Below, piece after piece: positions 661 to 36,948 of a DNA stretch of 36,948 bases. The DNA is from a virus: the IMG/VR virus record IMGVR_UViG_3300017726_000023, positions 1 through 36,948 of that record. One strand, 5' to 3'. Both the position numbers and the translations under genes were made by a program. The first letter of the stretch is position 1. Each line of letters starts with the position of its first letter. Below the pieces are notes generated by a model. It was given only the letters and a program-made list of their open reading frames with translations, made no database searches and was not told where the DNA came from.

Positions 661-1067
661 TATACGCTCACATCATCGTTTATAGTGAATGTTCCAGCAA
701 GCCACGTGGTAGCCTCTCCGCTGACTAATGCCTCAATATCATAAACGTACTCACCAGCTGCGGCAGCAGCCATGTTGGTGTTACTCCCAGTAATTACTAA
801 GCGACCAGTAGTACCTCCATCATTGAGAGAGGTTGTTAGTTGCTTAGTACCACTAGACGGTACTGTACTGAGTACGATGGCAGTGTCACTATCACCATAT
901 GCAGCGTCAGCGTTTAACGCATTTCTTACCTCCATCTTAATGGTGTAACCTGAAAGGTTAAGAGCAGCTCCTGCGGAGTCCGTCACATCAATAGATAGTT
1001 TGAAGGTATCTCCCTTTCTGCATGTGATATCCACACGCTTTGAAATATCAAGATTTATTTTAGACAT
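660..1067 (-). CDS. Small virion protein, BppU-N-terminal-like beta-sandwich
   Basis: This protein of 135 aa is rich in beta-strand-forming residues. Its N-terminal pattern ([17 protein letters not shown], then a '[11 protein letters not shown]' strand) resembles the N-terminal domain of phage baseplate upper proteins and related small head/tail proteins. It lies between portal and the collagen fibre, overlapping portal by 8 nt and the fibre by 1 nt, so all three are probably co-translated. A virion role as adaptor, decoration or neck protein is inferred from position. The exact role cannot be read from sequence. Confidence 0.6.
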
Positions 1068-3510
1068 CTCCTAGAATTTGATTTACTATATCTGTATTAG
1101 CGTCAGTCTGTTCTTCCATAACTGGACGCTCTCCTTTTCTTTGTGCTATAAGCTTAGACTGCTCAACAGCTTGCTTCTGTACCCTGTTGTCTTTTCTGTC
1201 TTCCTTAAGAACCTCTAGCTTTTCCTTGAACTCTTGGTCATCAGTCTTGAATCCAAGCGATGCTTGAGCACGAATCATTTCAATCTCTTTCTTCATCTGA
1301 TGGAGAGCAGAAGCAACTTGAACGTCTAACTGACCTTTAAGCTGCAACTTTTGAGCTTCTATTTGAGCTTCCATTTGCATCTTTTGAGCCTGAACCTGAG
1401 CAGCCATCTGCTGTGCTTGAGAGTTCGCCTGAGCCTGAGCCTGAATGTTTTGTTGTTGCATCTGCTGACGCATTTGCATTCTTTTTCTCCTTCTGATGGC
1501 AAGTAGCCTTTGAGCTTGGTCGATGTCCTTTACCTCTCTAACAGCGATAGCATCCTCAAGGTCTATCTCCCTTTGTGCTAACGAGGCTTGAAGGTTTTGC
1601 TCTAAGAATATTCTATCCTCGTCGGACATATCTCTAACAACTCTAATACCATAGTTGTACATAGGTATTTCATTAAAGCTACTTAGAATGTCCATACTTA
1701 TATCACCAATAGCCTTACTATAAACCCTATACAAAACAGAGTCATTAGGTATGACCTGAAGACATTTTATAATGTCAGAACAAACCCTCTTGTAAATAAT
1801 CAAGCTGGCATTTGTTATGTCGTAAAGGGCATTGTTACCAGCGGCAAGTGCCTGCTGTCTTACACCAACAAGAGCATCACCCTTAGGAGTAGATGCATCC
1901 ATGACCTCATTGATACCCGTAGCGTCACGAATCATTCTGAGGTAGTGGTTGTACAATCCAATGTACTCGTTGATGTTTCTAATACTATTCTCAATAGAAC
2001 GTATAGGAGGATTTTGGAATCCACCTTCTGGGTTCTTACTTCTATAGTAGAAGACACCCGTTTGTTCGTAAATGTCTTGAATGTCTAATGGTTGCAATTC
2101 ACCACCTCTACCGAGCTGGACGTTTTCCAGTCCTTCGATGTCAACCAATATACCGTCAGGCTTCGCCTTAGCGATTGCCTGTTGTATCTTCAAGTGAGTA
2201 AGTTGAAGTTGGTCAGCAAAACCAATGACACCACTCACTAAAGACTTAGGCATCATCCTCCTCATGTTAGTACAAGACACACTGTAAGACATCTTGGTCT
2301 TAGTTAAGTCGTGTATGTTCTTAGGCATGTTTGACTGAAGACCATAATTAAACAGACAGTTGTAACCTATAATAAAGCTACCAGAGTAGACCATCTGGTT
2401 CTCCATCTTTACTGGCTCTCTCTCGTACACAGAGTTTGGTGACTCCTTGTACTCAGAACCCTTGAAGTAGAACCCCATATTTCCATACTGAGATTCTTTA
2501 CTTTCATAATACACACAGTCAACTGTTAAGAACTCAAAGTCCATAACATCAACCAAGTAAGTGTCATAACCATAATTAAAGGTTCCTGAAGCTGTTGAGT
2601 AGTCTCTTCTAGCAAATGCCTTTGAGTCATTATAACTCTTGTGCATTACAGCTTTTGCTATCTCCTCATACTTCTCTTCTGAGATTTGATTCCCAGCTCT
2701 TCTCTTCAACTCCTGAATGCTAATCCTAGAAACATGACCAGCATAAACTATATCGCTTAAGTTTGGGTCCTCAGTATAACTATGAATGAAGTTTGCTGGG
2801 TCTATGTATCTAGTTACGATACCATAGTTGGGGTCGTTATCTCTTTTGACAACACCCATACCACATACAACTAAGTCTTCAATATTACGTCTGTATATGT
2901 CTTGGTCAAAATCATTCCAGTCCAACGTCAAGGATGTTGCCAACTGAGCAGCAATCTCTGAGCTAGTCTTGACGTTTTGGTCCATGAAGATTTCAGCCTC
3001 CTCGGTGGTATCTGGTAAAGTGTCTGGGTCTATATTTGGAGTAAGACCAATAGCCTTAGCTTCCATCAATAATTCCTTATCACCAATAGATGATTCTATC
3101 TCAGCCTTTTTTGCATCTTTCTCTTGCTTGCTAATAGGGTCTATAGCCTCTACCTTTGGGTATGGCTTTCTTGATAGGACTCTGTTAACAACTACCTTAA
3201 CAAACTTAGGGACGATAGGCACTGGACTCCAGTCGAGGTTCAGCAGTGTACCATCACCATTGTTTGGGTCAAGAGAGTTTAGAATCTGTTTATAGATGCT
3301 AGTGTCTTGTGTCCCGTTAGCGTAATCACGACTCTTTTCGAATTCGTGTCTTCTTCGGCTGTATAGGCTGGAGCTATCCTCCCCCCTTCCCCATTGCGCT
3401 TCTATCGCCTTTGCAAACTGCAAGCCATAGCTTTGACTCATCTTTTCCTCTGGTGAAGCAAACGGGTCTGGGAATCCTGCCTTATTCGTGTTTTTGTTTT
3501 TATAACTCAT
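1060..3510 (-). CDS. Portal protein
   Basis: This 816-aa protein lies directly downstream of the large terminase gene. Length, position and composition fit a podovirus-type portal: an alpha/beta body with many aromatic residues (about 1-640) and a Gln/Ala/Met-rich coiled-coil C-terminus (about 650-790, with runs of QAQ and MQM). Portal rings form the dodecameric DNA channel at one capsid vertex and dock the terminase during packaging. Similar long portals with Gln-rich tails occur in Bacteroidetes podoviruses and crAss-like phages. No Walker or nuclease motif is present. A TATATTTG box lies 22 nt before the ATG, so portal can be transcribed separately from terL. I rely on context and architecture, not on a diagnostic motif. 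Confidence 0.8.
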   Translation of the reverse strand: MSYKNKNTNKAGFPDPFASPEEKMSQSYGLQFAKAIEAQWGRGEDSSSLYSRRRHEFEKSRDYANGTQDTSIYKQILNSLDPNNGDGTLLNLDWSPVPIVPKFVKVVVNRVLSRKPYPKVEAIDPISKQEKDAKKAEIESSIGDKELLMEAKAIGLTPNIDPDTLPDTTEEAEIFMDQNVKTSSEIAAQLATSLTLDWNDFDQDIYRRNIEDLVVCGMGVVKRDNDPNYGIVTRYIDPANFIHSYTEDPNLSDIVYAGHVSRISIQELKRRAGNQISEEKYEEIAKAVMHKSYNDSKAFARRDYSTASGTFNYGYDTYLVDVMDFEFLTVDCVYYESKESQYGNMGFYFKGSEYKESPNSVYEREPVKMENQMVYSGSFIIGYNCLFNYGLQSNMPKNIHDLTKTKMSYSVSCTNMRRMMPKSLVSGVIGFADQLQLTHLKIQQAIAKAKPDGILVDIEGLENVQLGRGGELQPLDIQDIYEQTGVFYYRSKNPEGGFQNPPIRSIENSIRNINEYIGLYNHYLRMIRDATGINEVMDASTPKGDALVGVRQQALAAGNNALYDITNASLIIYKRVCSDIIKCLQVIPNDSVLYRVYSKAIGDISMDILSSFNEIPMYNYGIRVVRDMSDEDRIFLEQNLQASLAQREIDLEDAIAVREVKDIDQAQRLLAIRRRKRMQMRQQMQQQNIQAQAQANSQAQQMAAQVQAQKMQMEAQIEAQKLQLKGQLDVQVASALHQMKKEIEMIRAQASLGFKTDDQEFKEKLEVLKEDRKDNRVQKQAVEQSKLIAQRKGERPVMEEQTDANTDIVNQILGDV

Positions 3511-3563: not shown

Positions 3564-5672
3564 TTACTTATATCTTCGGAAGAAAACCTTCTCCTCAAAG
3601 TTAACGACCTTCTTCTTTTTCTTAACCTTTTGGGCAGCCAACAAAGCCAAGCCAGAGCTAATGGTAAGGTCAAACTTCGTCCTGTTGTCTATTTTAAATC
3701 CTATCCAATCTTCTAGTGTCCTGTTGAAATGCATCCTGCCTGGATTCCCCTCGTCATCTGAACCAACATGGTTATGTATGTAGTCCTCAATGGCTGAAGC
3801 GTGAGCCTGTATTACGTCTTGAGAGTTGGATGGTATACCCTTAGTCTTTACGGTCATTTGATTTTTAGAGGAGCTAAGATGAGCTGGTCTATCCATCACA
3901 TATCCATCATAACCCCTTGATTCAAAGTACCTTACGATACCATACTTGTTATTCTCAATCAGTAGTGGATAGCCATAGAAAACTGCTGCCATCAGAACAT
4001 CCTCATAGAATATACTAGCCATAGGTGGTCTACTCGCATACTCAGCAACGAACATGTTTGAAGCACCATCAAGATTAAACTTATTGTAAATGTGGCACGC
4101 ACCTTTTGATGACCTACCGTCAACTGTAGCGTCAAGGTCATAGCTATCTACTCCCCCACATCCAATGTTAGGATTCGGTGGGACCCTCTTACTTCCTTGA
4201 GTCTTCATCACACTCCTGTCTTCCTGAGATGGGGTCCAACAGATTCGCCATCTACCATTAGGGTCTGGATTGAATATAACCTTCGTGTCCTTTACACCGT
4301 TAGCCCATTGGAAGTTTCCAACAACAACAGGACTAGGGAACAGTGCATCGTTGTATTCCATCTGCTCGTATATTTTGCCAATGTTGAAAAGGCTACCCTC
4401 TATACTATCCCTGAACGCCTCATCAGTAGTGAAAGGGAACTGACGAACTATCTCATTCATCTCCCTAGCATCATGCTTAACGGCATCCCTCTCATTCTTT
4501 AAGAAGCTCTTAGAGCCCATAGCCATCATCTCACCATCAAGTGTTTGTATAGGTGATGAGGGGTCTACAGTTATCGGGTTCCCATGTACATCAAAGAATC
4601 CCTCTAGAGCTTCATAGGCAGGGATAAACAAACGATACAGACCTGAGGTAGTCCTACCATTGGCATTCCTCTTGTTTGTGTCAGAATCATCCCATAGCTT
4701 TTTGTACTCAGAACCGCCCTTGTCTAGTGGGTTTACCGTTGAGCCTACGAGTGCCTTACCCACAACCCTACGACCAACTATTAAACACGTTCTCTCAATC
4801 CTCCAAGCTTCCCTGATGTCAGCAGGCTTCTCCCACTTACCAGCCTCATCCATGTATAGCATGTGCAGCTTCTCACCATCGTAAGCGTTGTTAGTGGTGT
4901 TCTTCCAGTTGAGTACCGTGTTAAGTGCGTCACCTACATTGGTGGTCTTGTTGTTCTTTGTAATCCTCTTTGATGGCTCACGGAAGGCAAGCTCAACCCT
5001 TGGGTTTGTCGTACCGTCTTGAATTGGTTTGAAGAAGAATGGGTAGTTCCGAAACATCGAAACGCATTTCTTCATGAAGATATTCTCCTGAGCATCCTTA
5101 CCAGTCTTTGACTGAATGCCAAGAAGTTTGTCTTTAACTTGACTAGCTTCATTAACAAGGACAGAAGCGCAGATATTAGTATAACCAGACCTACGGCACT
5201 TAGTGTAAAGCTGCCCAATACAACGCGGGTCAACTTCGCAAGCAGCCATGTGAAGAAATATCTCTCTTTGGAACTTGAGGTAAGACGGGAACCCGACATC
5301 AATCTTGCTCCACTGTAGGAACATGTAGTGCCTCCCAGTGATAAACGTAGGTACACCCTGATTGTAAAACCAAAAACCTTCACTACGCCTTCGAAACTCC
5401 TCCTCGATATAAGGACGGAATCTTTCTCGAAACTCCTTTGGAGTCTGCTGCCACTCGTCCATGCTTCTAATACGGGACAACTCCTGTGGCATAGATACCC
5501 TTCTCCACACTTGCATACTTGTCTCCAAGTCTTCACCTGAGATTCCTGACTTTGGGGTCTTTGGTAAGCCAATGAGAAGGCTGCCGACTTCCACGATATC
5601 TCCGAGCGTACCCTTGGGGCAAATCTTAATAACCTTGTCATCATAACCCTCTACATCTACTAGATTGCTCAT
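3564..5672 (-). CDS. terL: Terminase large subunit (packaging ATPase/nuclease)
   Basis: This 702-aa protein drives DNA into the procapsid and cuts concatemers. A deviant Walker A lies at residues 159-165 (CRRSGYT, no GKT/S). Walker B is at 271-276 (MLYMDE) with catalytic E276, and a coupling motif LVGSTVN lies at 308-314. The C-terminal RNase H-like nuclease has acidic candidates D509 (GVDSYDLD), E573 (LLIEN) and D668 (KFDLTISS). A Lys-rich patch (QKVKKKKKVV) lies near the C-terminus. The start overlaps the upstream 96-aa gene by 4 nt (ATGA). The Walker A form with Arg-Arg-x-Gly-[FY]-[ST] is known in other phage terminases, so it is not a sign of inactivation. Confidence 0.9.
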   Translation of the reverse strand: MSNLVDVEGYDDKVIKICPKGTLGDIVEVGSLLIGLPKTPKSGISGEDLETSMQVWRRVSMPQELSRIRSMDEWQQTPKEFRERFRPYIEEEFRRRSEGFWFYNQGVPTFITGRHYMFLQWSKIDVGFPSYLKFQREIFLHMAACEVDPRCIGQLYTKCRRSGYTNICASVLVNEASQVKDKLLGIQSKTGKDAQENIFMKKCVSMFRNYPFFFKPIQDGTTNPRVELAFREPSKRITKNNKTTNVGDALNTVLNWKNTTNNAYDGEKLHMLYMDEAGKWEKPADIREAWRIERTCLIVGRRVVGKALVGSTVNPLDKGGSEYKKLWDDSDTNKRNANGRTTSGLYRLFIPAYEALEGFFDVHGNPITVDPSSPIQTLDGEMMAMGSKSFLKNERDAVKHDAREMNEIVRQFPFTTDEAFRDSIEGSLFNIGKIYEQMEYNDALFPSPVVVGNFQWANGVKDTKVIFNPDPNGRWRICWTPSQEDRSVMKTQGSKRVPPNPNIGCGGVDSYDLDATVDGRSSKGACHIYNKFNLDGASNMFVAEYASRPPMASIFYEDVLMAAVFYGYPLLIENNKYGIVRYFESRGYDGYVMDRPAHLSSSKNQMTVKTKGIPSNSQDVIQAHASAIEDYIHNHVGSDDEGNPGRMHFNRTLEDWIGFKIDNRTKFDLTISSGLALLAAQKVKKKKKVVNFEEKVFFRRYK

Positions 5673-11107: not shown

Positions 11108-11164
11108 AGGGTATATAAATAAAGAAGCCTACGTCAGGGCATAGGCATGGCTTATTCACTTATT

Positions 11165-11247
11165 AGCTCACTGTATTCAAAGAGCTCAAGCGTAACAGAT
11201 TGTTGTTAGCTCTTTAGGTAGAGAACAAGACTGCGAAGCTAAGTCTT
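11165..11247. other. Cluster of small hairpins, possible structured RNA
   Basis: AGCTC (11165-11169) can pair with GAGCT (11182-11186), and AAGACT (11227-11232) with AGTCTT (11242-11247). A weaker CTCT/AGAG hairpin lies between them. The stems are short (4-6 bp), so chance cannot be excluded. Confidence 0.25.
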
Positions 11248-11304
11248 AGTGACTACCGTTGCGCTCATGAGCCGATGCGAAGTTACACGAAAAAAATGAC
11301 AATG

Positions 11305-11400
11305 TCAAGTATACTTGCGTTTATTCTTGCATGTGAGTTTACTATATAGGTATGTCACATATGCAAAGAATGATATCAAGAATACCAAGAAGTAAAACAT
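11305..11400 (-). CDS. Possible 31-aa membrane micropeptide
   Basis: This short leftward frame from ATG at 11400 encodes a hydrophobic stretch (MFYFLVFLISFFAYVTYLY) followed by a basic tail (KLTCKNKRKYT), which looks like a single-pass membrane peptide. A TATCTTTG box lies 35 nt upstream (11436-11443) on the same strand. It stands alone in the control region and no related sequence is known to me. It may be chance. Confidence 0.25.
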   Translation of the reverse strand: MFYFLVFLISFFAYVTYLYSKLTCKNKRKYT

Positions 11401-11435
11401 GATGAATCTGATGTATTTCAAGCCTCAAGTTTCCA

Positions 11436-11443
11436 CAAAGATA
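11436..11443 (-). promoter_or_regulatory. TAnnTTTG-type box in the control region
   Basis: TATCTTTG on the minus strand lies 35 nt before the 31-codon candidate frame. It could start a leftward transcript through the repeat array. Boxes of this degeneracy also arise by chance. Confidence 0.25.
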
Positions 11444-11515
11444 ACCCCGAAAACATATCGCTGGTTACGTGAAAATAGATGTCAGTAATACACACCGTGG
11501 GGATTATTATATTAT

Positions 11516-11548
11516 AAATCAATTGCTAAACAAAAAACAAATTGATTT
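11516..11548. repeat. 9-bp inverted repeat in AT-rich DNA
   Basis: AAATCAATT (11516-11524) and its exact complement AATTGATTT (11540-11548) are separated by 15 A-rich bases. The DNA just upstream (GGGGATTATTATATTATA) is also AT-rich. No T-run follows directly, so a terminator is unlikely; a binding site or an easily unwound origin element fits better. Confidence 0.5.
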
Positions 11549-11815
11549 TACAAAACCCACCCCCTAAAACTTTTTGCGATTTGCGCGTAGAATTCTAGCT
11601 TTTTCTGTAGACTCATGATGAGGTTGCTGATAGATGTATGCATAGTATGTGGGTACACGATGACAGTACAAGGATGCATTCGATTGATAGCTTGACGACA
11701 AGCAGGTACAATCACACCCACATTTTTTTTGCCTCTGCATATACTACCATCATTGGGGATTCAACAAACACATAAATTTTTTTTTACTCTGCACACAATA
11801 TTGAAAACATGCACG

Positions 11816-11822
11816 ACGTTAT
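11816..11822 (+). promoter_or_regulatory. ACGTTAT leader element, copy 1
   Basis: ACGTTAT followed by ACTATC lies 37 nt before the ATG at 11853, the first rightward gene. It is the first of seven copies in the early region. Confidence 0.5.
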
Positions 11823-11852
11823 ACTATCAAACAAACCAATAATTTTATAGTT

Positions 11853-18473: not shown

Positions 18474-18547
18474 ACTCTCGTAGCTCAGTTGGATAGAGCA
18501 TCTGCCTTCTAAGCAGACTGTCAAAGGTTCGAATCCTTTCGGGAGTA
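18474..18547 (+). tRNA. tRNA-Arg (anticodon UCU)
   Basis: A full cloverleaf is visible. The acceptor stem is ACTCTCG (18474-18480) with CGGGAGT (18540-18546, one T-G pair). The D-arm is GCTC/GAGC. The anticodon arm is TCTGC/GCAGA with loop CTTCTAA, anticodon TCT at 18508-18510, and the T-arm AAAGG/CCTTT has loop TTCGAAT. The discriminator is A18547 and CCA is not encoded. It reads AGA (and possibly AGG), and the phage genes around it use AGA and AGG very often, so it likely helps late translation. It is flanked on both sides by G/C-rich hairpins. Confidence 0.93.
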
Positions 18548-18590
18548 CGATTCAAGTAAGCCATTTGAATCTTAAGTGTGTACAATTGTA

Positions 18591-23273: not shown

Positions 23274-23804
23274 ATGAGTAAGATTAATTTTCCCGATGAG
23301 TTCAGTGTAATGAAAGAAGCCATCGAAGAGGTGTTTGAACTAGACCTACACTCTACTATTAGACAGAGAAAGTATGTGAACGCAAGAATGATTTTTTCAA
23401 AATCTATGTGTGACAGGGGTCATACTCGAACTGATGTAGCTAAATACTTAAAGAAAAATCACGCAACAGTGATACACTACTTGAAGTATTTTGAAGGTTA
23501 CTTGGCTACGGACATAGAGTTCAAAAGGAAATACAGAGATTGCACTTTGACATACAGGAATAAGTTCGAGCCAGTTCAAAAGATGAATAAGTCAAGAATG
23601 GAGCAGAAGCTCATAGAGCTCAGGAATGACAATGAAGACTTAAGAGGTAAAGTAGAAAGCTTGATGTCACAGATAAAGATTCTGAACCGTGAAGAAGATA
23701 GGTTCTCAGAAATCTATGACGTTATTCATGACCGAACTAGACGTGGGACTGAAGAAATGGTAAAGAATAAATTAAATAAAATGTTCAATGGATTATATGC
23801 CTGA
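23274..23804 (+). CDS. DnaA-domain-IV-like DNA-binding protein with coiled coil
   Basis: This 176-aa protein has at residues about 28-88 the same helix-turn-helix form as the protein at 19581: 'RQRKYVNARMIFSKSMCDRG', then 'TDVAKYLKKNHATVIHYLKY', close to DnaA domain IV ('NHATVIH' versus DnaA 'DHTTVLH'). The second half (about 105-165) is a charged coiled coil (ELRNDNEDLRGKVESLMSQI). It may bind the origin repeats and dimerise. It is the second gene of this type in the window, on the other side of the primase-helicase. Confidence 0.7.
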   Translation: MSKINFPDEFSVMKEAIEEVFELDLHSTIRQRKYVNARMIFSKSMCDRGHTRTDVAKYLKKNHATVIHYLKYFEGYLATDIEFKRKYRDCTLTYRNKFEPVQKMNKSRMEQKLIELRNDNEDLRGKVESLMSQIKILNREEDRFSEIYDVIHDRTRRGTEEMVKNKLNKMFNGLYA

Positions 23805-25513: not shown

Positions 25514-25927
25514 TTAATATATATCAAGAAATTTCTCTTTAACTACAAAGCTAGGGCAAGCCTTGGATGAAAATTCGTTGTGTCCATGAATAGTGATGTC
25601 TTCACCAAACAAAGTTCTGATTGAAGCAACCAGATGTTTAAAGGCATCCTCTTGTTCTGGAGTCATGGTGTCTTTTGGTTTGATGTCAGCATCTACCCCA
25701 CCTATGTAACAGATTCCGATGGTGTCTTTGTTGTGACCCCTTACGTGAGCACCCTGCTTGTCTACTGGTCTCCCTATAGCTATGCATCCATCTAGACTGA
25801 TAACGTAGTGATACCCTATATCAGACCAGCCTTTGGCTGTGTGCCAATTTCTAATTGTATCCACTGAATACTCTTTGCCCTCGACTGTAGCCGAGCAGTG
25901 TAATACTATTCTGTTTATATCTCTCAT
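25514..25927 (-). CDS. Endolysin: N-acetylmuramoyl-L-alanine amidase (amidase_2)
   Basis: This 137-aa protein has the T7-lysozyme-type zinc amidase residues at exactly the T7 spacing: H10, Y39, H116, K122 and C124 ('VLHCSAT', 'GYHYVI', 'IHGHNEFSSKACPSF'), equivalent to T7 H17, Y46, H122, K128 and C130. It cuts the bond between MurNAc and L-Ala. No signal peptide is present, so it depends on the holin for release. The gene overlaps the giant gene stop by 4 nt (ATGA). Confidence 0.9.
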   Translation of the reverse strand: MRDINRIVLHCSATVEGKEYSVDTIRNWHTAKGWSDIGYHYVISLDGCIAIGRPVDKQGAHVRGHNKDTIGICYIGGVDADIKPKDTMTPEQEDAFKHLVASIRTLFGEDITIHGHNEFSSKACPSFVVKEKFLDIY

Positions 25928-28900
25928 TCTTCTATATAATTTTCTTCAAGGTATATCTTTTCTGAAAGGATTCTAGGCTTAGTAATCCCAAGGTAAGTGT
26001 CAGTAAACTCCTTGTACTTAGAGAACTCAGCAGGTTTCATCTCTTCTTTCTTTGAGCGCATAAACACGTAATAGTCTTTACCGTCTTTTAGTGTTCTTGA
26101 AAGTTTTCTAAAGTCTTTGTTGTATTTAGCAAACTCTTCAGGATGGTTTTGCTTCATATAGAATTCAACTTCTATAGGTTTCATTGCGCTTTTAAATCTG
26201 TTGACTGCACGTTGCTGGTCAAATGGATTATCAGCCTTACCCTCTACAAGATTCATGATTCTATCCTTCCCTACGTCACCTTCAGTGTCCATTATTGCTT
26301 TTATCAACTCTGGATTAGATTCTTGAAGATATTCTAAAGCAAACTCTTCGTATGTTGCAAGCTCCTCTTCACTGCGGAACTTTCTTTCTTTAGGAGTGTC
26401 ATCAATCTTTCTTATGTATAGGTCTAACTCCTTGTTAGAGAAACCTAACAACTGAGCTGCGGTCAATCCAGCTTTAAGGGCAAAGTGCGTGTCCATGGCT
26501 TGCTTGTCCTGCGGTCTAACATAATACTCTTGACCTGACATGCTTATGATTTTATTACCAGGAGTAGATAGGTTTTCAATCGTGTTGGAAACGTCAGCTA
26601 TATAGTCCCCATAAGGTCCTGCGGTTGAACCAATTACACCAAACACATCTCCGTCAATCGCTCTCTGAATTGGAGTATATACATCAATGCCCCCTTCTGT
26701 TCTTTTCCATCTCTCATAACCATCTTCATCCCCAATGTTATAATCCCCATACATCATCCTGTCCATAGGGTACAACACAAATTTATTCGTCGCTCCTTTG
26801 ATGTTATCATCAATGAATGATAGTGGTGGTAATGGCTGGAAGTCAACTATCACTTGACCTAGAACACGATGCCATCTTTTCTTCTTTTCCTCCTCTGAAA
26901 TTTCTTCATCATCACCGAATAAAATAGACATCAGTGCTGGTATTATTATTGCGTTTACTGATGCAAACAAGGTGAGCTCGGAAAGGTGACCTAAAGTGGA
27001 TACAGCTCCTTCACCAGCTGTTTCTTTTTTACCAAGCTTCAACAAGTCAGACATTATACTACGCTTCTTGTTTACAGCAAACCTAGAGAATGGTAGTAAT
27101 ATGTTTCGAGCATACCATGATATAGCCGCCTTCTCATCTTTTGAATCAGTATATAAATCAGCAGCTTGTCTTGGTGTAGATGCAGCTTGGTCTTTAGACA
27201 CCATTGAGTTCGCATGACTAAGCGCATCTTGATTTGGGTTAGCAGCTTCTGCACTCCAATCTATTTCGTTAAAACTATCTACGACACCCTCACTAATAAG
27301 GAAGTCCCCATAGAATGCAAACCAAGACGCAACAGCAGCAACCTTATCCGTACCCTTAAGATTCTTCAGTGATATGTCTCTGAGTTTTTTCTGAATCTTT
27401 TCTAGCTTAGTCTCATCAAAGTTCATTGCACCACTGTACGGGTCGATGTTACCAGCCTCGTAGTCCCTTTGGAATACAGGTGAGTTTTTAAGTAGGTCGT
27501 ATCTACCCTTGTCAAGAGACAGCTTTGAGTCCTTTTGAGCAAATGTCCTACCCGTATATATCGCCATCTCCGCAACAACCTGCATCAAGTATGGTATTGA
27601 TTGAAGAGGGTTCTTTGTTTGGAACATCACAGAAATTAAAACAGATGACTGGGTTATAGTCTGTTTGATAAATCCACCGAACGCTTTCACAATTACTGCG
27701 TTTCTCAGGATGTTTAGTGGGTTGTTTCTAAGCTTCCTTCCAAACAGAGTGAATGTTGATTTGAACACGTCTGGAACCTTACCAGTGTCTTGAGCTACAT
27801 AAGTCATAAACTTCTTCTCAAGCTCCTTTCTCATAGGTTCAGATGGAATCAATTCAGAAACAGCATCACTATTCAAAACGAAAGATGCTTTTGCTACGTC
27901 TCCAACTGTGTTTGATAGAATTGTATTTTCTCTAAGTGTCCTCTCGTTTATCGAGATGAAATCTAAACCAATAATATTTCTACCACCAGAAAGTGAACGA
28001 GCATTACGCTCAAAAGATGAACCAGCAACCTTCTTCGTTTTAGATAATGTTGTGGCTTGTAAAGCCATTTGCATACCCCTCTGTATCTTCAGTATGTCCT
28101 CAACATCTTGATTTTTATTTTTAACCCTGATGTCAAATGGTGTATAGTTGTCCTCAATGACTAGCTCTTTCCCAAGATATCTCTCCACATAATTACTAAA
28201 GCTAGGTGCTTGAGAGTTGTGAACATCAACCATGAAGTCAACGAATCTAATCAACTCAGGACGTTCATTCTTGACTTTATCTTGAAGCCCCTGTATGTCA
28301 TTAGTATTGGAGAATAAGAAGTTGTAAGCGTCTCTTACTTCCTCTAGCTCTGACTTTGTGAGAGCAGTCTTGTTTTCCTTCTCATAATATTCAATAGTGC
28401 TCTTCATTGAATCACGAAGCTGGTTATACCATATTGCAGCAGCATTCTCGCCTTCAATTTCAACGGAAGGAATCTGTCTAGACATTGAGAATACCTGCAT
28501 GATAGCTCTGTCAAACCTTGTTGTAACACTACCACCATCTTTCTCTATCTCGTTGATTTCATTGTTCATCAACTCAACAAGCTGTGAGTGTATAAAATCA
28601 GCCTTAGAGAATGCAGTCTCCATACCAGCAAGACCAAGAGCAACCCTTAGCTTTGCCATCGTTTTGTTGTCGGTGACTATCAGGTTTCTCAAGAATGAGT
28701 CAACAGTATCCATCAATCTAAGAACTACTCTATCCCTAGCTTTAAGGTTTTTAGACTTCATTATATCTCTTAACCTCTTAGGGAAATCTAGTTTACCCAT
28801 AACCAGAGAATGCAGATAACCAATTCCGAACTTAGAATCATTAACCACATAGTCATCTATCTTGTAATCTAAGTTGATGATGTGTATTCTGTCAAGTTGA

Positions 28901-31900
28901 TTTAGCCTTTCTCTTAGGGAGTTTACATCTAAATCCTCTGCCTTGAACACACCAAGTATTTCGGCAAGCTGTGAGTCTTCTAGGATTTTCTCAATGTTCA
29001 TTACTATCCTAGGAATCATCACATCATTTATGATTGCCTCCTTCTTGAGCTCATCTTTTTCAGCAGCCTGTCTTGCAAGTTCTTCTACAACCTGTTCAAC
29101 GTGAGCTGGGTTTGCTGGGTCCAGCTGGTCGTTCTGATTCTTTTCGTTATACTCGTCTATGTAATTGAGGATAGCCCTACGACTTGCAGATAACCTGCTT
29201 CTCTCGTAGTTCTTTGTAATCTTATCGTACTCCTCTTGGAATGAAGTGTTGTTTTTCTTAGCTCTTCTCTCAGCCCTAGCAACAAAAACAGCCTGTCTAC
29301 CTAGCTCTTCCATAGCCTTGAAGTTTGAGACTATATCGCTTAATAGGTTTGCCTCAATCTTCTCTGGTGCTACACCAACATAAACCTCTTCTTCCTTGTC
29401 GAACTTGGCGGTAGCCGTTGACATGGAGTCAATGGTATTCATAATCGTTGCCACAAATGCTTGCAGCTCAGACTGAGGGATTAGTGCTGGGTCTATACTT
29501 GCCAATACCCTAGCTATCCTTGTGTACGTTGCCCTGCTCTTTAGTGCTTCACCCTTCTTCCTTCTTTTAGACATTCTCTTGAGCCTGTCTTGAAGTTTCT
29601 TTGTGATTTTTATTGCCTTTAGATACTGTTCAAGAGCAGCCTTCGCATCTCTTTCATCAAAGATTTTAGATATTCTATCAATGGCTGATTGCATTGCATC
29701 AAGACCTGAGTCCTTAACCTTCTTAGAGCTAGTCCTGTGCGCAGCTGCAACAGCTTTGAAGAGTCTTGCAAGTTGACCTCTTGTGAATGGAGTCTTGTTG
29801 TTCGCCTTCATCCTCTCGTCAACAACCTTGATTGCCTCCCTCATGAACTCTTGGAAGGTCTTAGACTTATTCATGACCTCCTCTAGCTTATTCCTAAGAT
29901 TCTTGGCTTCTGTAGAAAGTTTTCTCCTCTCTCTTTCAACCTTAGCAGCAACCTTCATCGCTTCCTTCTTACCAGCTGTCCTACCTGTCTTGTAAGCAAC
30001 AGCACTCTTGTACAATCGCTCGGCAGTTTCCTTGGTCATTCCAGCACCTATAAGGGCATCCATAACCTCTTTCTTTTTGTAAGCGAATGCACTTAGCTGA
30101 CTGCTTGTATCATCTTGTATTGATATAGGATTCTTTCTCCTATTATCTCTCTTGATTGATGGGTTTGGTGAAGCCTTGTCTATCATGTTGGCAACAACCC
30201 TAACAAGCGGGTCTTGAGCCTTTGCTGTATCAACAGCCTCGGACTCTGGTTGTAACTGCAAAGAACCATATTTAGCCTGACCCATACCAAGTTTAGCTTT
30301 AAATGACGCTTGAGCAGTTTTATCAGTATACACTTTTAACTTTCCAGCAGCCATGATACCTTCTGTTGTCGCCAGCTTTATGTAATCCTGCATGTTTAAA
30401 TAAGCTACAGTTCCGTCTGCTTTTTCAGCTTGAGCTTTAAGGGAGTCGAATGATGTCTTATTATTAAGCAACTTTATCTTTGGAGTCTTCTTATTGCCGT
30501 TCTCGTCAAGCATGTACATGATGCCTGGGTAAGAAGGATTATCTGGTTGAGAATCAGCAATAAGTTTTGAGTCAACCTCGATAACCGCATACACATGATT
30601 CTGAGGAACGCCATTTATAAACTTTTCCGTGAGAATATCTATAACAGACTCTTGAATAGCCCCACCAAGACTTAATGCGCCTACGTCCTTACCTAGAAGG
30701 TTACCAACAATACCCTTTGCTTGCTTAATATTTTCTTTTGCTTTCCCAGTTTTAAATGTAGCATTGAACACTACACGAACTCTATCTAGGAATAACTTTC
30801 TCTGGTCAAATGTTATTTGATTTTTGGGGTCGGACATATACTTTATAATCCTATTGCCAATCTCTATATTAGTTCCTTTATCTAGAGCAATTTCTCTTTG
30901 CTCTTTCTTGCTAAAAACTTCTTGATAAGCTTTAATAACAATCTTACCATATTGAGCTTCTGTTATGATTTTCTCCTCGGCAAGTTTAGTTGCTATTGTA
31001 CTAAGTATGTTAGCATGAGCAGTGACACCAGATGCGCTTGAAAGAAGCATTTCCTTTCTTCCAGTCATTAGAGAAATATAAATCTTGCCAGATGGTGAAT
31101 CTTCAAGCATCTTGTTTGCCTTTCTAACAAAGGCTGTTGGAAGCTCTTTGAACGCCCATGTGTCACCAGTGCTTATGGGATAGAACACCCCACCAGAACC
31201 ATTAAATATAACATCACCGTCGACTTTAACTTGACCGACAAACATGTTGTCTGGGACCATGCTTAGTACAACATCGTCTCCTACCACAGCTCTCAAGTCA
31301 TCTGCATATTCAACATTATCATCATACTTCTTACGGATTTCTTTATCTTCAGACTCTATATCATAAGACGTTTCGAATATCCCAAACTTCTGAGCCTTAA
31401 GCAGTGTGGCAGGATTTGATTCTTGTGTATTCTGTCCAGGGACTATTGATTGAAACTTTACTGTAGCACCTTCTTTGGTAGTAACGGTGAATCTTTCATC
31501 TGTTACAGAAACCTTTTCAGCATCTTTAGCAAGAACCAATGCGCCTATCTGAATAACTTCAGATGCAGCAACGACAGGCTTACCATCTCTCTTGTCGTAG
31601 AACCAACTGTGTCTGAAAGGGTTCATACCTACTTGAATCCATCCGTCTAGCTTACCTTCAGATAGGTCAGATATATTGTACTGGTCACCCTCCATAATCT
31701 TAACAGCTTCCTCTCTTAAAGCCTCAGGACTGTGGTTATTCCAGTCACCAAACATCCTAGCTATCGTAGTTTTAGGCTTATCTAATGCTATATTTAAAGC
31801 CGCTTTAGATGTGGAGTCAAACTGAACATCCTTGATGAGTGCTGTCTGTGCGTATCCTATCGACTTACCTCCTAAGAAAGGTGTTCTATCAGCAGTCCTT

Positions 31901-34900
31901 GAACCTTGATGGAGCGAAACCACCCAAACATCGTAGTTGTCGTAAGCAGGAATATCTAACCTAACACCAGTATAATAGTTGTCTGGGATATCCTTATTCA
32001 TCCCTATAATTCCTGACTCAAGTTTATTAGTGTTTAGTGCAGCACCAATGTCTAGTGTAGAAGGAATCTCAGGAACTTCTAAGAATGGCTTGATTGGTGA
32101 ATGAACTTTTACCGCCTCTAAGTATTGCTCTTGAGTCATCTCATTAGCAACGTAAGACTTGAGAGCGTCAAGAGCTCTTGGAACCCTCTTTTGTCTCTGA
32201 CTTTCATCAAGTTTTAACTCTCCTTTTCTTGCTTCTAACGCTTCTACTGTGGTGTTTTCAGCTTCAAGGAATGAGTCTATACCTGGCTTGTTTTGAAGCT
32301 CAACAAGTGGACCTTGTTGTTTCTTGTTAGCAATATTAGATGCGTAATCAAAAGCCTTCCCGTAGTCTTCCATACGGATACCCTCACCAACTTTACCTTC
32401 ACCGTCAACGAAGAAAACAATATCAGGCTGGTCCTTGAGAGGAGATGTCTCAGCATCCCAACCCTCAGGTGCAAAGTCTGGATTGAAGTCAAGTCTTGCG
32501 ACAGGTTTGAAGCCATTGTCAACGTACATGTTCTCAAGCCTAGTTGCGTAGGCATCAAAGAACTTACCTCCAGCCTCTACCTGCTTGTCAAACAAAGGCA
32601 CACTTACTCTTCCTAACTGTGAGTCTGCATTCTTAAACAGACCACCCATATAACCATCAGCGGTTACGTAAGAACCAGCAAGACCATCTCTAGTCATGAA
32701 TAACTTAGCCCCGTCGTCAAGCATCTTTTGTACTTGCTCTGTATTTAGGGGTGAAACCTGTATCATTAAGTTTCTGCCAAGCTCTTTGTCCCTATTGATG
32801 GCAGCAGCCATAGCGTCAGCATATCTAGATGCATCGGTAACCTCCTCCACATCTCTTAATCTAGCCTCAGGCTTTTGTTGTTTGTTTTCAAAGTCATCAA
32901 CTACAGTAGCCATGACCGAGTACCCCATTCTCTTGGAAGCCTCGGCAACATCGTCAAGTGCTGTAATCTGTTCCCCCTCACGGATTTCTCCAGAGATTTT
33001 TTGTATAGCACTAACAAGGTCTTCAAGCTTTGGCTTTGCTTGAATATCTATACCTGTGGTTGATTTGAGTAGACCTGTTATAGAGTCTGCGAATCTGTTG
33101 ACCATGCTTCTCTTGAACTCAATACCAACATCTTCGTTAGTAATGTCACCAAGAAGCTCAACTAAGAACTCTTCTGATATTATCGACCTACCACTCTCGA
33201 ATAACTGTTTTATTGTGCCATCACCGTCAAATTCTTTTATGTATGACTTTAGAAAGTTTTCATACTTTGTTTTAAGTTCACCACTCAGACCATTGAAAAG
33301 GTCTTGCGCTAACTTACGCATTGCCTTATCCCCAATGGTTTCTAGAAGGACCTCATGATATGCTTCGTGATATGCTGTGTTCTCCCTAATGGCAGGAGCG
33401 TAAAGATGTATTTCACTTGCAACACCCTCTTTGCTTCTTTTTATGTGTAGACCTCTAGAAAGTTCATTGTTAGTTTCTTTCTCAAAGGCTTCTGCTGTTC
33501 TGTGAAAAATAACCCTAACACCATCGCCAGTTTTAGCTAAAGCTTTTACAACTTGCAATGCGTTCTTCATTGATTTAAGAACCTGCTGTCCAGTGTTAGC
33601 ACCTACTGCTTCAAGAGGTTGGATGCTTTCACCCGTTGTTTGTTCTAATGCTTCAGATACCTCATCCAAGTTCTCCATTGTAACTTCAACAGAATCACCC
33701 TTACTGAATAATCCACCATAACCATTAAACAACTCATCAACCTTAGAAACATTATCTAGTATTCTCTGAGATTCACCCTGCCCGTCAATTTCATACTTTG
33801 CGCCTTCTTCTTTTTCAATGGAGTATCTTTCGTTATAAAGCTTTTCCATCTCAACTGCCACATCATTTTTAGCGTCACCAGTTAACTTACTATATTGAAT
33901 ACCAAGGGCAATCATTCTTTTTTGAACACCCATCAATTTTTCATATGCCTCTGGAGACTTCTCCCTGATGCTCTCGTAGAACTTTATCTTCTCTTTTCTA
34001 TTCTGTGCCGCTTCCATAAAAGCATTCGCAAGCTTTCGACCTATTGCAGCCTTTCCACTATTGGTGGTTTGTTCAGAGAGTTGGTTTTCTAACGTTTTTA
34101 TCTTTATCTGGTCTCTTATAAGGGGAGCGTCGTATAGTGCTAAAACTCCAGCAGAAGCTTTACTGGCGGCAAACATTCCCCCCATGGCTGTTACTTTTAA
34201 ACCACCCCCAACAGTACCCATACTCCCAGCAAGAAACAGCCCTGCGTAAGCACCATCTTTAACTGCTGATGTAAACTCTTTAGAATCAAACTTCTTACTA
34301 GGGACTGCTGCTACGTCGAGCAAGTATTGTACACCTGCTGTCGCTGCTTCTGTAGCACCCTCCTCAAGCATACCAATCCCAGTGCTTTTAAGAAAACCTG
34401 ACACCCAAGATTCTGCGCCTTTACGTGTAAGGCTACTTAATATCTTACCACCAACAATAGTTCCAACTAAGGCAGGGGCTCCCTCTGCGATACCATAGGC
34501 AGAAACGTATGCCGCCCTTTCCAACATGTTCATGTCGTTAAACCATTCCTCCTCTCTTACCCTTCCATAGGTAGTCAACATACCATAGGATGAGGTAACG
34601 GCAAACGTATTACGGTTTATTGCACCGAAGGGTTTAGTTGCTTTAAACAGTTTTCTTTTAGCAGCAAACCTTGCACCCGAACCTTTAGGAGCTCTTTTCA
34701 CAGCTCTAGCAAATCGACCTCTCGTTGCGGCAGCAGTAGCCATAGCTGCAACCATCATAGGACCACTATCCCCAAGCATTCTCAAGCCCTCTCCAACGAG
34801 ATTATCTAATTTCTCATCGTCGATGGATGCGTGTAGTGTGAAGTCCCCTTTTGAAGTAACGTCTGGAGTTAGTTCTATTGAGCCAACAGCCTCCTCGAAT

Positions 34901-35961
34901 GTTTCTCCGAAACCTCTATTCTTAAGGGGTATAGGTAATTCATCATCGTAAGACTCTTTAAGAATGTCCCAGCTTTTAACTGCTTCCTCTGAGTATCTAG
35001 TCATGTAACTGTCACCTGTAACAGCCCTTAATACATCTAGAATAGCCGCATCTCCAGACCTAGCAACATCTACAAGACTCCTCATAAATGCAGTTGAAAA
35101 ACCTAAGTCAAACTTTTTGTGATAGTCTGCACCACCAAGGTATCCATCTTGACTTAAGTCTACAGGAAGATTGTATTCATCTAGAAGGTACTTCTCATAC
35201 TTTTGAACCTTGGTTCTGTCACCCTTTATATCTTCTGGGATGAGTGACTCTAATTGTTCACCTGAAAGCATGGCAACCTTTCCACCAAAGAAAGATTCCT
35301 CTTCAGCTAAAACCTGCTCGACGGGAATGTCAATTATTGCATAACTACCAACTTCCTGGTAAGTTTCACCACCACCTTTAGCATAAGCAGCGACTCTCGG
35401 ACTTATACCAGCATAAAGGCTCTTTTTTATACTGGAATTCTCAATACCATCATTATACAACTCATCAAGTATGGCTTGACTAGCCGATTTTCTAGCCTCA
35501 TCATTAGGTGCTTTTTTGTAAGCTTCGGCTAGTAGGTTATACTTTTCGGATGGGATGTAAGGTGACTTACCGTCTTCAGATTCAAAGTGATTAAAATGAG
35601 AATCTACCCACTGTTCTGCGTTCCAGTTCTCCTCGTATACTGAATCAAAATTATCACCAAAACTTCTAGCGTATTGATTTAATATTGTGGTGTCTTGTGT
35701 TGGGATGTACCTTACTTCACCACCAATATCTACTAAAAGCGAATCCGAATCTTGAGACACCTCTTCTCCGTCCAAACTTCCAGTCGAGGGAAACTCCGTA
35801 GAATCCGTTCCCAAAAGAGAAGGAGAAGGTGAAACTTCTTCCGAAGCCAGTGAATCTTTTTTTTTTTTAGAATTGTAACTTGTGACAATCCCTAGCAAGT
35901 CATCTCTGCTTGCACCACTTGCTTGTGCTTCCTCTAAAAGAGCTTTTAATTCCTCATCCAT
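25924..35961 (-). CDS. Giant 3,345-aa virion/ejection protein with zincin-like domain
   Basis: One uninterrupted frame of 10,038 nt. The N-terminus ('ELKALLEEAQASGASRDDLL') precedes a low-complexity Ser/Glu linker. Glycine- and Ala-rich hydrophobic segments lie at about 395-420, 490-545 and 570-605, the last two around 'GIGMLEEGATEAATAGVQYL'. HEAYH at 865-869 is a HExxH zinc-metallopeptidase motif. Basic coiled-coil regions follow at about 1995-2160, and hydrophobic segments near 2760 and 3010. The mix resembles 'polyvalent' phage proteins that are packaged and ejected into the host, but no nuclease, methylase or polymerase motif was found. An 'RxxxK…YG' RNA polymerase motif was sought and not seen. 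The TATTTTTG box at 35966-35973 ends 4 nt before the ATG. An A12 run encodes Lys 32-35. Confidence 0.85.
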   Translation of the reverse strand: MDEELKALLEEAQASGASRDDLLGIVTSYNSKKKKDSLASEEVSPSPSLLGTDSTEFPSTGSLDGEEVSQDSDSLLVDIGGEVRYIPTQDTTILNQYARSFGDNFDSVYEENWNAEQWVDSHFNHFESEDGKSPYIPSEKYNLLAEAYKKAPNDEARKSASQAILDELYNDGIENSSIKKSLYAGISPRVAAYAKGGGETYQEVGSYAIIDIPVEQVLAEEESFFGGKVAMLSGEQLESLIPEDIKGDRTKVQKYEKYLLDEYNLPVDLSQDGYLGGADYHKKFDLGFSTAFMRSLVDVARSGDAAILDVLRAVTGDSYMTRYSEEAVKSWDILKESYDDELPIPLKNRGFGETFEEAVGSIELTPDVTSKGDFTLHASIDDEKLDNLVGEGLRMLGDSGPMMVAAMATAAATRGRFARAVKRAPKGSGARFAAKRKLFKATKPFGAINRNTFAVTSSYGMLTTYGRVREEEWFNDMNMLERAAYVSAYGIAEGAPALVGTIVGGKILSSLTRKGAESWVSGFLKSTGIGMLEEGATEAATAGVQYLLDVAAVPSKKFDSKEFTSAVKDGAYAGLFLAGSMGTVGGGLKVTAMGGMFAASKASAGVLALYDAPLIRDQIKIKTLENQLSEQTTNSGKAAIGRKLANAFMEAAQNRKEKIKFYESIREKSPEAYEKLMGVQKRMIALGIQYSKLTGDAKNDVAVEMEKLYNERYSIEKEEGAKYEIDGQGESQRILDNVSKVDELFNGYGGLFSKGDSVEVTMENLDEVSEALEQTTGESIQPLEAVGANTGQQVLKSMKNALQVVKALAKTGDGVRVIFHRTAEAFEKETNNELSRGLHIKRSKEGVASEIHLYAPAIRENTAYHEAYHEVLLETIGDKAMRKLAQDLFNGLSGELKTKYENFLKSYIKEFDGDGTIKQLFESGRSIISEEFLVELLGDITNEDVGIEFKRSMVNRFADSITGLLKSTTGIDIQAKPKLEDLVSAIQKISGEIREGEQITALDDVAEASKRMGYSVMATVVDDFENKQQKPEARLRDVEEVTDASRYADAMAAAINRDKELGRNLMIQVSPLNTEQVQKMLDDGAKLFMTRDGLAGSYVTADGYMGGLFKNADSQLGRVSVPLFDKQVEAGGKFFDAYATRLENMYVDNGFKPVARLDFNPDFAPEGWDAETSPLKDQPDIVFFVDGEGKVGEGIRMEDYGKAFDYASNIANKKQQGPLVELQNKPGIDSFLEAENTTVEALEARKGELKLDESQRQKRVPRALDALKSYVANEMTQEQYLEAVKVHSPIKPFLEVPEIPSTLDIGAALNTNKLESGIIGMNKDIPDNYYTGVRLDIPAYDNYDVWVVSLHQGSRTADRTPFLGGKSIGYAQTALIKDVQFDSTSKAALNIALDKPKTTIARMFGDWNNHSPEALREEAVKIMEGDQYNISDLSEGKLDGWIQVGMNPFRHSWFYDKRDGKPVVAASEVIQIGALVLAKDAEKVSVTDERFTVTTKEGATVKFQSIVPGQNTQESNPATLLKAQKFGIFETSYDIESEDKEIRKKYDDNVEYADDLRAVVGDDVVLSMVPDNMFVGQVKVDGDVIFNGSGGVFYPISTGDTWAFKELPTAFVRKANKMLEDSPSGKIYISLMTGRKEMLLSSASGVTAHANILSTIATKLAEEKIITEAQYGKIVIKAYQEVFSKKEQREIALDKGTNIEIGNRIIKYMSDPKNQITFDQRKLFLDRVRVVFNATFKTGKAKENIKQAKGIVGNLLGKDVGALSLGGAIQESVIDILTEKFINGVPQNHVYAVIEVDSKLIADSQPDNPSYPGIMYMLDENGNKKTPKIKLLNNKTSFDSLKAQAEKADGTVAYLNMQDYIKLATTEGIMAAGKLKVYTDKTAQASFKAKLGMGQAKYGSLQLQPESEAVDTAKAQDPLVRVVANMIDKASPNPSIKRDNRRKNPISIQDDTSSQLSAFAYKKKEVMDALIGAGMTKETAERLYKSAVAYKTGRTAGKKEAMKVAAKVERERRKLSTEAKNLRNKLEEVMNKSKTFQEFMREAIKVVDERMKANNKTPFTRGQLARLFKAVAAAHRTSSKKVKDSGLDAMQSAIDRISKIFDERDAKAALEQYLKAIKITKKLQDRLKRMSKRRKKGEALKSRATYTRIARVLASIDPALIPQSELQAFVATIMNTIDSMSTATAKFDKEEEVYVGVAPEKIEANLLSDIVSNFKAMEELGRQAVFVARAERRAKKNNTSFQEEYDKITKNYERSRLSASRRAILNYIDEYNEKNQNDQLDPANPAHVEQVVEELARQAAEKDELKKEAIINDVMIPRIVMNIEKILEDSQLAEILGVFKAEDLDVNSLRERLNQLDRIHIINLDYKIDDYVVNDSKFGIGYLHSLVMGKLDFPKRLRDIMKSKNLKARDRVVLRLMDTVDSFLRNLIVTDNKTMAKLRVALGLAGMETAFSKADFIHSQLVELMNNEINEIEKDGGSVTTRFDRAIMQVFSMSRQIPSVEIEGENAAAIWYNQLRDSMKSTIEYYEKENKTALTKSELEEVRDAYNFLFSNTNDIQGLQDKVKNERPELIRFVDFMVDVHNSQAPSFSNYVERYLGKELVIEDNYTPFDIRVKNKNQDVEDILKIQRGMQMALQATTLSKTKKVAGSSFERNARSLSGGRNIIGLDFISINERTLRENTILSNTVGDVAKASFVLNSDAVSELIPSEPMRKELEKKFMTYVAQDTGKVPDVFKSTFTLFGRKLRNNPLNILRNAVIVKAFGGFIKQTITQSSVLISVMFQTKNPLQSIPYLMQVVAEMAIYTGRTFAQKDSKLSLDKGRYDLLKNSPVFQRDYEAGNIDPYSGAMNFDETKLEKIQKKLRDISLKNLKGTDKVAAVASWFAFYGDFLISEGVVDSFNEIDWSAEAANPNQDALSHANSMVSKDQAASTPRQAADLYTDSKDEKAAISWYARNILLPFSRFAVNKKRSIMSDLLKLGKKETAGEGAVSTLGHLSELTLFASVNAIIIPALMSILFGDDEEISEEEKKKRWHRVLGQVIVDFQPLPPLSFIDDNIKGATNKFVLYPMDRMMYGDYNIGDEDGYERWKRTEGGIDVYTPIQRAIDGDVFGVIGSTAGPYGDYIADVSNTIENLSTPGNKIISMSGQEYYVRPQDKQAMDTHFALKAGLTAAQLLGFSNKELDLYIRKIDDTPKERKFRSEEELATYEEFALEYLQESNPELIKAIMDTEGDVGKDRIMNLVEGKADNPFDQQRAVNRFKSAMKPIEVEFYMKQNHPEEFAKYNKDFRKLSRTLKDGKDYYVFMRSKKEEMKPAEFSKYKEFTDTYLGITKPRILSEKIYLEENYIEE
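35857..35868 (-). repeat. A12 homopolymer in the giant gene
   Basis: Twelve consecutive A on the coding strand encode four Lys near residues 32-35, about 95 nt into the frame. Slippage here would shift the frame near the start of the whole 10-kb gene. Confidence 0.85.
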
Positions 35962-35982: not shown

Positions 35983-36948
35983 TTACTTTTGTGACTTCAA
36001 AAAATCACCCAACTGTTTTTCGTTTTGAGCTTGCTCTGCCTTTAATTCATCAAGGTCTACATTAGGAAACGCTCCAAGCATGGCATTTGCCATCACTGCC
36101 TTATTAACCTTTTGATTCCTTTTCGCCTCTTCAGCTTTTATGCTTTCTAGTGTTCTTGCTTGACCCAACTGAAGAATCTGGTCATATGTTAGCTTGTCAC
36201 CAGTTGCTGGGATTCTTTTTAATGCAGCCTCAACCTCATCGAATTGAGCATTTGCTGGCGGGATGTAAACAACATCATACTCTGTTTTATTACCGAAGTC
36301 TACGTCGAACCCTGCTTTACCTTTAAGAACTTTATAAGCTACTACTTCAGCAGTCTTAGGGTCCAAGATAACAGCGTCAACCATTATCTTTGAAGCTTTA
36401 CCTGATTCACCAAATTCAACTTGGGTACCAAAACTTTGACCTCCAACACTAAGCTTAACTCCAACACCTCGTTGCGATTGTTGTTTCTTATCCTCAACAC
36501 CTAGGTTGTATTTAGTGTTGTAAGGCTTAGGAATACCATCCATAACTTTCTCAAAGTTTGCCCTGTTCTTTTCGGCTTCTTTAGCCTGAGAAGCTCTATA
36601 GACATTTTGTTTAGATGTCTCGTCTATAACACCCATCATCCCTAATGTTAAATCTGCTGTGTACTCATAGTATTCTTTAATGGATTCTCTAGAATTTGTG
36701 ACATTTTCCATACCTGCTCCTTCAAGCATTTCATTAGTCACATCAAAAATAAAATCACCAGCTTCGTTGAAGCTACCACTAGTAACGGAAGTGCTTTTAC
36801 CTTCGTTGTCAGTATAAGTTTGAGTGTTTAATTCAGAGTTATATATAGTGTTAGCTTTTTCTATATCTTCCTCTGTCATTTCAGACCTACCAGGAATATC
36901 TTTAGTCTTATAATAAAATGCAGCAGCAGCTTCTGAAATCGCACTTGG
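35983..36948 (-). CDS. Putative virion protein (5' end outside window)
   Basis: The frame is open at the right edge: 23 codons before the first ATG (36879) read sensibly (PSAISEAAAAFYYKTKDIPG), so the true start is outside. The visible 321 residues are Lys/Glu-rich and helical at both ends. A beta-rich middle carries 'RGVGVKLSVGGQSFGTQVEF' and 'GKASKIMVDAVILDPKTAEV'. It lies directly upstream of the giant protein gene, so a virion or ejection partner is inferred. No family was recognised. Confidence 0.65.
   Translation of the reverse strand, partial: PSAISEAAAAFYYKTKDIPGRSEMTEEDIEKANTIYNSELNTQTYTDNEGKSTSVTSGSFNEAGDFIFDVTNEMLEGAGMENVTNSRESIKEYYEYTADLTLGMMGVIDETSKQNVYRASQAKEAEKNRANFEKVMDGIPKPYNTKYNLGVEDKKQQSQRGVGVKLSVGGQSFGTQVEFGESGKASKIMVDAVILDPKTAEVVAYKVLKGKAGFDVDFGNKTEYDVVYIPPANAQFDEVEAALKRIPATGDKLTYDQILQLGQARTLESIKAEEAKRNQKVNKAVMANAMLGAFPNVDLDELKAEQAQNEKQLGDFLKSQK

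Follow-up and report, generated by a model that had tools for sequence, protein, structure and literature searches.

A giant phage protein with a predicted zincin and exchangeable modules resembles phage-type polyvalent proteins

The window analysed here is the whole of IMG/VR virus record IMGVR_UViG_3300017726_000023 (36,948 bases), and one of its genes, P0001, encodes a giant protein of 3,345 amino acids (aa). Our comparisons place this protein in a known class, the phage-type polyvalent proteins, and show that it is similar in plan to the N4 virion RNA polymerase (vRNAP) without a detectable polymerase. The overall plan looks like a membrane-prone front, a conserved zincin, exchangeable cargo and a large helical end. 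The reading that we favour, by a modest measure, is that the giant protein enters the virion, passes out of it along with the DNA and is cleaved by its own zincin so that cargo is set free. The most informative feature is the exchange of domains in the stretch from the zincin to the C-terminal end. An earlier note on this DNA mentioned neither this exchange nor the polyvalent class, which had already been described.

The giant open reading frame is a conserved gene

25924..35961, minus strand: giant-protein gene P0001, 3,345 aa (open frame; full-length relatives in loci L005-L024; alignment A1)

The earlier note had described a 3,345-aa open reading frame (ORF) at these positions without naming its strand. 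The frame is open throughout and lies on the minus strand. Relatives were found in more than 20 IMG/VR contigs and are mostly full-length. A close group of 3,286-3,348 aa shares 46-50% identity and an identical layout with the 3,345-aa protein. Because these independent full-length relatives are of nearly equal length, the ORF is a real gene. Single-sequence searches of Pfam, PHROGs and the PDB with the whole protein gave no significant match, a Pfam search of seven close relatives gave sub-threshold rows only, and PDB sequence searches with profiles A1, A8, A10 and A5 returned nothing credible. The statement in the note that residues 900-3345 hold no nameable domain is thus correct for the single sequence, but it fails when relatives and a structure model are taken into account. 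Two patterns were scanned against 84,980 genomes of bacteria and archaea and found no relative and no prophage copy, although distant copies can escape such a scan.

The giant protein has a predicted zincin with an invariant metal site

33127..33591, minus strand: zincin domain, residues 791-945, with a helix, three strands, HExxH helix and Glu helix (AlphaFold2 model; alignments A7 and A11; profile match to the N4 vRNAP zincin)
33355..33369, minus strand: HEAYH, residues 865-869, with the catalytic Glu and two His predicted to bind zinc (sequence, alignments)
33157..33174, minus strand: EEFLVE, residues 930-935, with the predicted third zinc ligand E931 or E935 (alignments, model)
32872..32919, minus strand: low-confidence linker, residues ~1015-1030, at the border of the zincin and the first cargo domain, a candidate cut site (predicted local distance difference test score, pLDDT, <50 in the model)

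A zincin had been proposed from the HEAYH motif at residues 865-869, and the motif and its quoted flanks (LHIKRSKEGVASEIHLYAP before, EVLLETIGDKAMRKLAQDLF after) are exact in the translation. HEAYH is the sole HExxH of the 3,345-aa protein, where 0.016 would be expected from composition, and each close relative has one HEA[YF]H at the identical position. In a wider alignment, H865, E866, H869 and E931 are kept in all 33 homologues that cover the site and E935 in 32 of the 33, with identity among the aligned zincin sequences going down to ~20%. Since the metal-site residues are invariant in sequences this divergent, catalysis appears to have been retained, and the protease is likely to be active.

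An AlphaFold2 model of residues 735-1850, built from 79 aligned sequences, had a mean pLDDT of 87.9. Residues 791-941 form a helix, a strand, a helix, two strands, the HExxH helix, an insert and the EEFLVE helix. HEAYH is therefore predicted to lie in a zincin fold with a downstream EExxxE helix, inside the zincin core and not outside it, and the zincin assignment of the note is borne out by the predicted fold and the invariant residues together. The model is metal-free. Taken with the conserved residues, it shows the metallopeptidase core described for polyvalent proteins by Iyer et al. 2017 (PMC5512222), namely an N-terminal helix, a three-stranded sheet, the HExxH helix and the Glu helix. 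A zincin profile from 20 diverse copies matched the N4 vRNAP zincin with HExxH in register (hhalign probability 78%, E 1.8e-5), compared with a probability of 0.8% for the control against N4 C2. Zincin rows were weak in the fold search of the four-domain model (735-1850). A second or third HExxH, often HEIQH or HEVQH, was seen downstream of the HEA[YF]H-type zincin in L026:1-11850, L192, L063, L065, L028 and L025.

Three modules follow the zincin

32362..32862, minus strand: D1, residues 1034-1200, GNAT (acetyltransferase) fold (model, fold searches; also in phage proteins annotated minor capsid)
31432..32301, minus strand: D2, residues 1221-1510, Phage_L5_gp82-like (PF25735 by its relatives; phrog_586); also in smaller phage proteins
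30439..31416, minus strand: D3, residues 1516-1841, without a named family; also present in other giant phage proteins, among them the elemo structural protein

For D1, GNAT proteins filled the ten top Foldseek rows (best E 0.018), and D1 aligned with 1ghe_B at a VIA Z of 11.4 over 136 residues (root mean square deviation 2.8). The GNAT pyrophosphate-binding loop, R/Q-x-x-G-x-G/A after strand 4, is absent from D1, which has KNADSQLGRVSVPL there as judged by eye against the model strands; its relatives keep GGLFKN-DS-L where the loop would stand. D1 may not be an acetyltransferase, because the canonical pyrophosphate/acetyl-CoA loop is missing. D1 is also present in Microbacterium phage proteins annotated minor capsid.

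For D2, PF25735 (Phage_L5_gp82) matched 23 of 26 D2-bearing proteins, inside D2 in the first member, and phrog_586 matched 28 of 29. The motifs RLDIPAY, VSxH, GMNPxRxSxFY and QxGxLVxA are nearly invariant, which suggests from sequence that D2 is an enzyme. D2 is very common in contigs of uncultured phages, with relatives encoded in at least 558 stretches of the viral collection; in some of the proteins that carry it, ART-PolyVal, Zeta toxin, LPD23 or GNAT domains are present too. GNAT rows dominated when the four-domain model was searched by fold, so these searches said little on D2 and D3. Structural neighbours among viral proteins include the elemo structural protein as well as ART-PolyVal, PcfJ-like and LPD proteins. 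With zincin and GNAT folds in a single model, and the L5-gp82-like domain in addition, biochemically unlike domains occur in one polypeptide, in agreement with the multi-domain nature that the note had proposed.

Modules are exchanged within a conserved frame

28192..30324, minus strand: C1-C2, residues 1880-2590, part of the conserved frame (module profiles)
26758..28176, minus strand: C3, residues 2596-3068, shared more widely than any other C-terminal part and modelled as helical (profiles, model)
25927..26757, minus strand: C4, residues 3069-3345, helical protein end (profiles, model)

Ten segment profiles were compared with all ORFs of the fetched loci, giving 52 non-redundant ORFs of at least 1,900 aa. 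The loci were fetched with modules as bait, and the counts describe this sample, not natural frequencies. The close group has the order N1-N2-Z-D1-D2-D3-C1-C2-C3-C4 (Z, zincin). Layouts among relatives are N1-N2-Z-D1-D2-D3-C, N1-N2-Z-D2-C, Z-z2-D2-C and Z-LPD23-z2-C: neither D1 nor D3 is present in L027, L089 and L090, D2 and a second zincin-like motif occur in L025, and in L026 LPD23 and two further HExxH sites replace D1-D3. Distant giants retain Z and a C3 end; in several of them D2 and/or D3 stand in between, or D1 lies ahead of Z. Z precedes C3 wherever both are seen. At the level of sequence profiles, this shows that modules between the zincin and the conserved C-terminal end are swapped among relatives. 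The domains also turn up, differently combined, in other phage proteins, both among the 52 giants and, for D2, in smaller proteins. A rule that the zincin always stands directly before cargo was rejected, since D1 precedes it in several giant proteins.

Hydrophobic segments and the helical end

33892..35961, minus strand: N-terminal region, residues 1-690, with Gly/Ala-rich hydrophobic segments at ~395-413, 487-505 and 575-593 (alignments, hydropathy)
26920..26976, minus strand: residues 2996-3014, the single segment of clear transmembrane hydropathy (2.11)

The hydrophobic Gly/Ala segments reported in the note are present and their positions are conserved in relatives, but they are modest and only residues 2996-3014 are clearly transmembrane-like. 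Kyte-Doolittle means over 19 residues were 1.22 (490-508), 1.17 (590-608), ~1.0 near 2750-2770 and 2.11 at 2996-3014; the further segments in the C-terminal half are 2748-2766 and 2996-3014. The C-terminal model was almost wholly helical (pLDDT 72). Its best fold match (Z 6.2 over 70 residues) was not used, such matches being common for helical models. The N4 vRNAP (gp50, 3,500 aa) has an N-terminus that inserts into the membrane and a large helical end (PMC12633501), and by this analogy the idea of a membrane-crossing protein is reasonable.

The giant gene lies among late genes of a probable podovirus-like phage

1060..3510, minus strand: portal protein, a late gene on the same strand as the giant gene (phrog_6547, E 2.9e-195)
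3564..5672, minus strand: terminase large subunit (phrog_6681, E 4.5e-201)
25514..25927, minus strand: N-acetylmuramoyl-L-alanine amidase (endolysin), directly downstream of the giant gene (Pfam Amidase_2, E 2.5e-14; PHROG lysis)
35983..36948, minus strand: ORF upstream of the giant gene, truncated by the contig end, 321 aa visible (homologue in L024)

The giant gene, terminase, portal, amidase and holin are all on one strand. The giant gene is thus encoded among late/virion genes, as expected of phage-type polyvalent proteins, and this neighbourhood supports the virion and ejection context suggested in the note. In L024 a 621-aa protein is encoded ahead of the giant gene; the upstream ORF of the window is its homologue (E 2e-17) and encodes a possible partner ejection protein. 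Further ahead, before the 621-aa gene, L024 encodes a crassvirus muzzle protein of 1,734 aa (PF25731, E 1.6e-14; PF25729, E 1.8e-9), the Pfam identification having been run on L024 only. This muzzle ORF is at L024:1982-7183, and similar ORFs of 1,734-1,781 aa occupy the equal position in L009, L013, L014, L017, L018 and L027. The late order in relatives is muzzle, ejection-size ORF, giant gene and amidase. Because a muzzle protein precedes the giant gene, phages carrying both probably share a crassvirus-like tail tip.

The nearest isolates of the terminase are phages of Flavobacterium, Cellulophaga, Tenacibaculum, Maribacter and Azobacteroides, so that the host is likely a member of the Bacteroidota. 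With the portal and large terminase in the window and the crassvirus-type muzzle in relatives, the source is probably a podovirus-like phage that infects Bacteroidota. No gene in the window was identified as that of a major capsid protein, and the record is therefore probably a fragment of a genome that, judging from relatives, would be ~55-70 kb.

Comparison with known systems

Polyvalent proteins as a class, and the proposal that they process themselves, go back to 2017 (PMC5512222). Like those proteins, the 3,345-aa protein combines many unlike domains in one chain linked to late genes, has an HExxH/Glu-helix zincin and shows mosaic module exchange. Its relatives carry LPD23 and ART-PolyVal; unlike polyvalent proteins, the 3,345-aa protein itself has no named LPD or Pfam domain above the cut-off. 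In the literature that we searched, we found no description of the layout of Gly/Ala N-terminus, zincin, GNAT fold, L5-gp82, D3 and long helical end.

The N4 vRNAP is similar in size, membrane-prone N-terminus, zincin type and an adjoining gene for a 600-650 aa protein, and its large helical C-terminal part may have a counterpart in the helical end predicted here. It differs in the position of the zincin, which follows the polymerase in the C-terminal half of the N4 protein, whereas here it occupies residues 791-945, in the first third and before the cargo. No profile similarity was found between N4 C2 and the C-terminal profile.

The giant protein of the elemo phages of Flavobacterium (L002, >3,637 aa) shares residues 489-700, the zincin and D3. 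In contrast, D1 and D2 were not detected in it by these searches, DUF3293 is present and its C-terminal end is not detectably related. It carries the label 'structural protein', which is taken here as annotated. The elemo gene order is comparable, with a muzzle-like structural protein (matched by the L024 muzzle), small genes, a 449-aa gene and the giant gene. Compared by gene position only, the phi-crAss001 cargo proteins gp45-gp50 are also encoded after a muzzle gene; they are mostly helical, were found in virions by mass spectrometry and are thought to be ejected with partial unfolding (PMC10172136). Crassviruses have several cargo proteins, including an RNA polymerase, compared to one 3,345-aa chain here.

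A model of delivery and self-processing, and its alternatives

In the model that we propose, the giant protein would be made late, packaged inside the virion and threaded through the tail ahead of or together with the DNA. By analogy with these systems, packaging and ejection are likely. The N-terminal and C-terminal hydrophobic segments would touch the host membrane, and the helical C-terminal part would be a constant frame on which packaging or delivery depends. Once the protein is packaged or has entered the host, the zincin would cleave its own chain, possibly at the linker 1015-1030 between the zincin and D1. This would free the cargo just behind it (the GNAT-fold domain, the L5-gp82-like domain and D3), which may then act on host targets early in infection. 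Also by analogy, we lean slightly towards the chain itself as the substrate over a host or virion protein. Several observations weigh against this model. Self-cleavage is not a given, since the N4 vRNAP with its comparable zincin is packaged uncut (PMC5512222). The C3-ended giants L182, L183, L191 and L067 have no detectable zincin, and since D1 lies ahead of the zincin in other giants, the zincin does not mark the border of the cargo in every case. D1, lacking the usual acetyl-CoA loop in its model, may be no acetyltransferase, and most of the 'membrane' segments have low hydropathy.

It is less probable, though worth weighing, that the protein is packaged and ejected but that its zincin is aimed at the host, as an effector cutting a bacterial protein in early infection. 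The fully conserved metal site would suit this, host cleavage is listed by Iyer et al. as a possible metallopeptidase role (PMC5512222), and the uncut N4 vRNAP is in keeping with it. However, the zincin type stays constant while the neighbouring domains change, which is easier to reconcile with a service role inside the protein than with a single fixed host target. An improbable alternative is a maturation protease of head assembly acting on other virion proteins, with the giant protein as a scaffold or internal head body. The late gene in a structural neighbourhood and the (unchecked) 'structural protein' label of the elemo relative would agree with this, but cargo modules with relatives beside enzyme and toxin-associated domains are unexpected for such a protease.

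More improbable still is a virion RNA polymerase, of the N4 or crassvirus kind, that has diverged past the point of being recognised, despite the size (3,345 versus 3,500 aa), zincin, large helical part and adjoining ejection-size gene (PMC12633501). Profile and BLAST searches gave no similarity to the RNA polymerase domain of N4 (residues 998-2103), Pfam gave no polymerase match and the D.DGD motif is absent, the structure models covering residues 735-1850 and the C-terminal part; GNAT-fold and gp82-like modules stand mid-protein. That the ORF is a degenerate or artefactual joining of genes without coherent function, as a contig with a gene truncated at its end might raise, is contradicted by the full-length relatives of identical layout and is very improbable.

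Self-processing of the giant protein could be approached in the elemo phages of Flavobacterium, cultured relatives in which virion processing is measurable and which offer a tractable test. To our knowledge, direct tests of self-cleavage of polyvalent proteins by their own zincins appear few. The giant-protein family also provides a clean comparison, with one conserved frame and metal site and a variable cargo slot, and it suggests that phages with crassvirus-type tails deliver non-polymerase cargo. A wider and tentative proposal, which we regard as rather doubtful at present, is that in a broad uncultured group of Bacteroidota podoviruses the constant giant protein (zincin to C3) serves as a general frame carrying interchangeable host-directed enzymes, freed by the zincin after ejection. 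If so, a phage would change its early-infection arsenal by domain swaps inside one injected chain.

Other features of the window

A 195-aa ORF at 5946-6533 (minus) is GroES/cpn10-like by eye, and in the elemo phages an annotated chaperonin cpn10 immediately precedes the terminase gene. A collagen-like tail-fibre ORF at 1-660 (minus) runs off the contig end. Between two divergent gene blocks, positions 10962-11852 hold ~890 bases without an ORF of at least 60 aa and are likely a control region. A tRNA-Arg (anticodon TCT) lies at 18474-18548 (plus) amid plus-strand genes, and an ORF at 23274-23804 (plus) has a motif like the DnaA C-terminal helix-turn-helix (KNHATVIHYLKYF).

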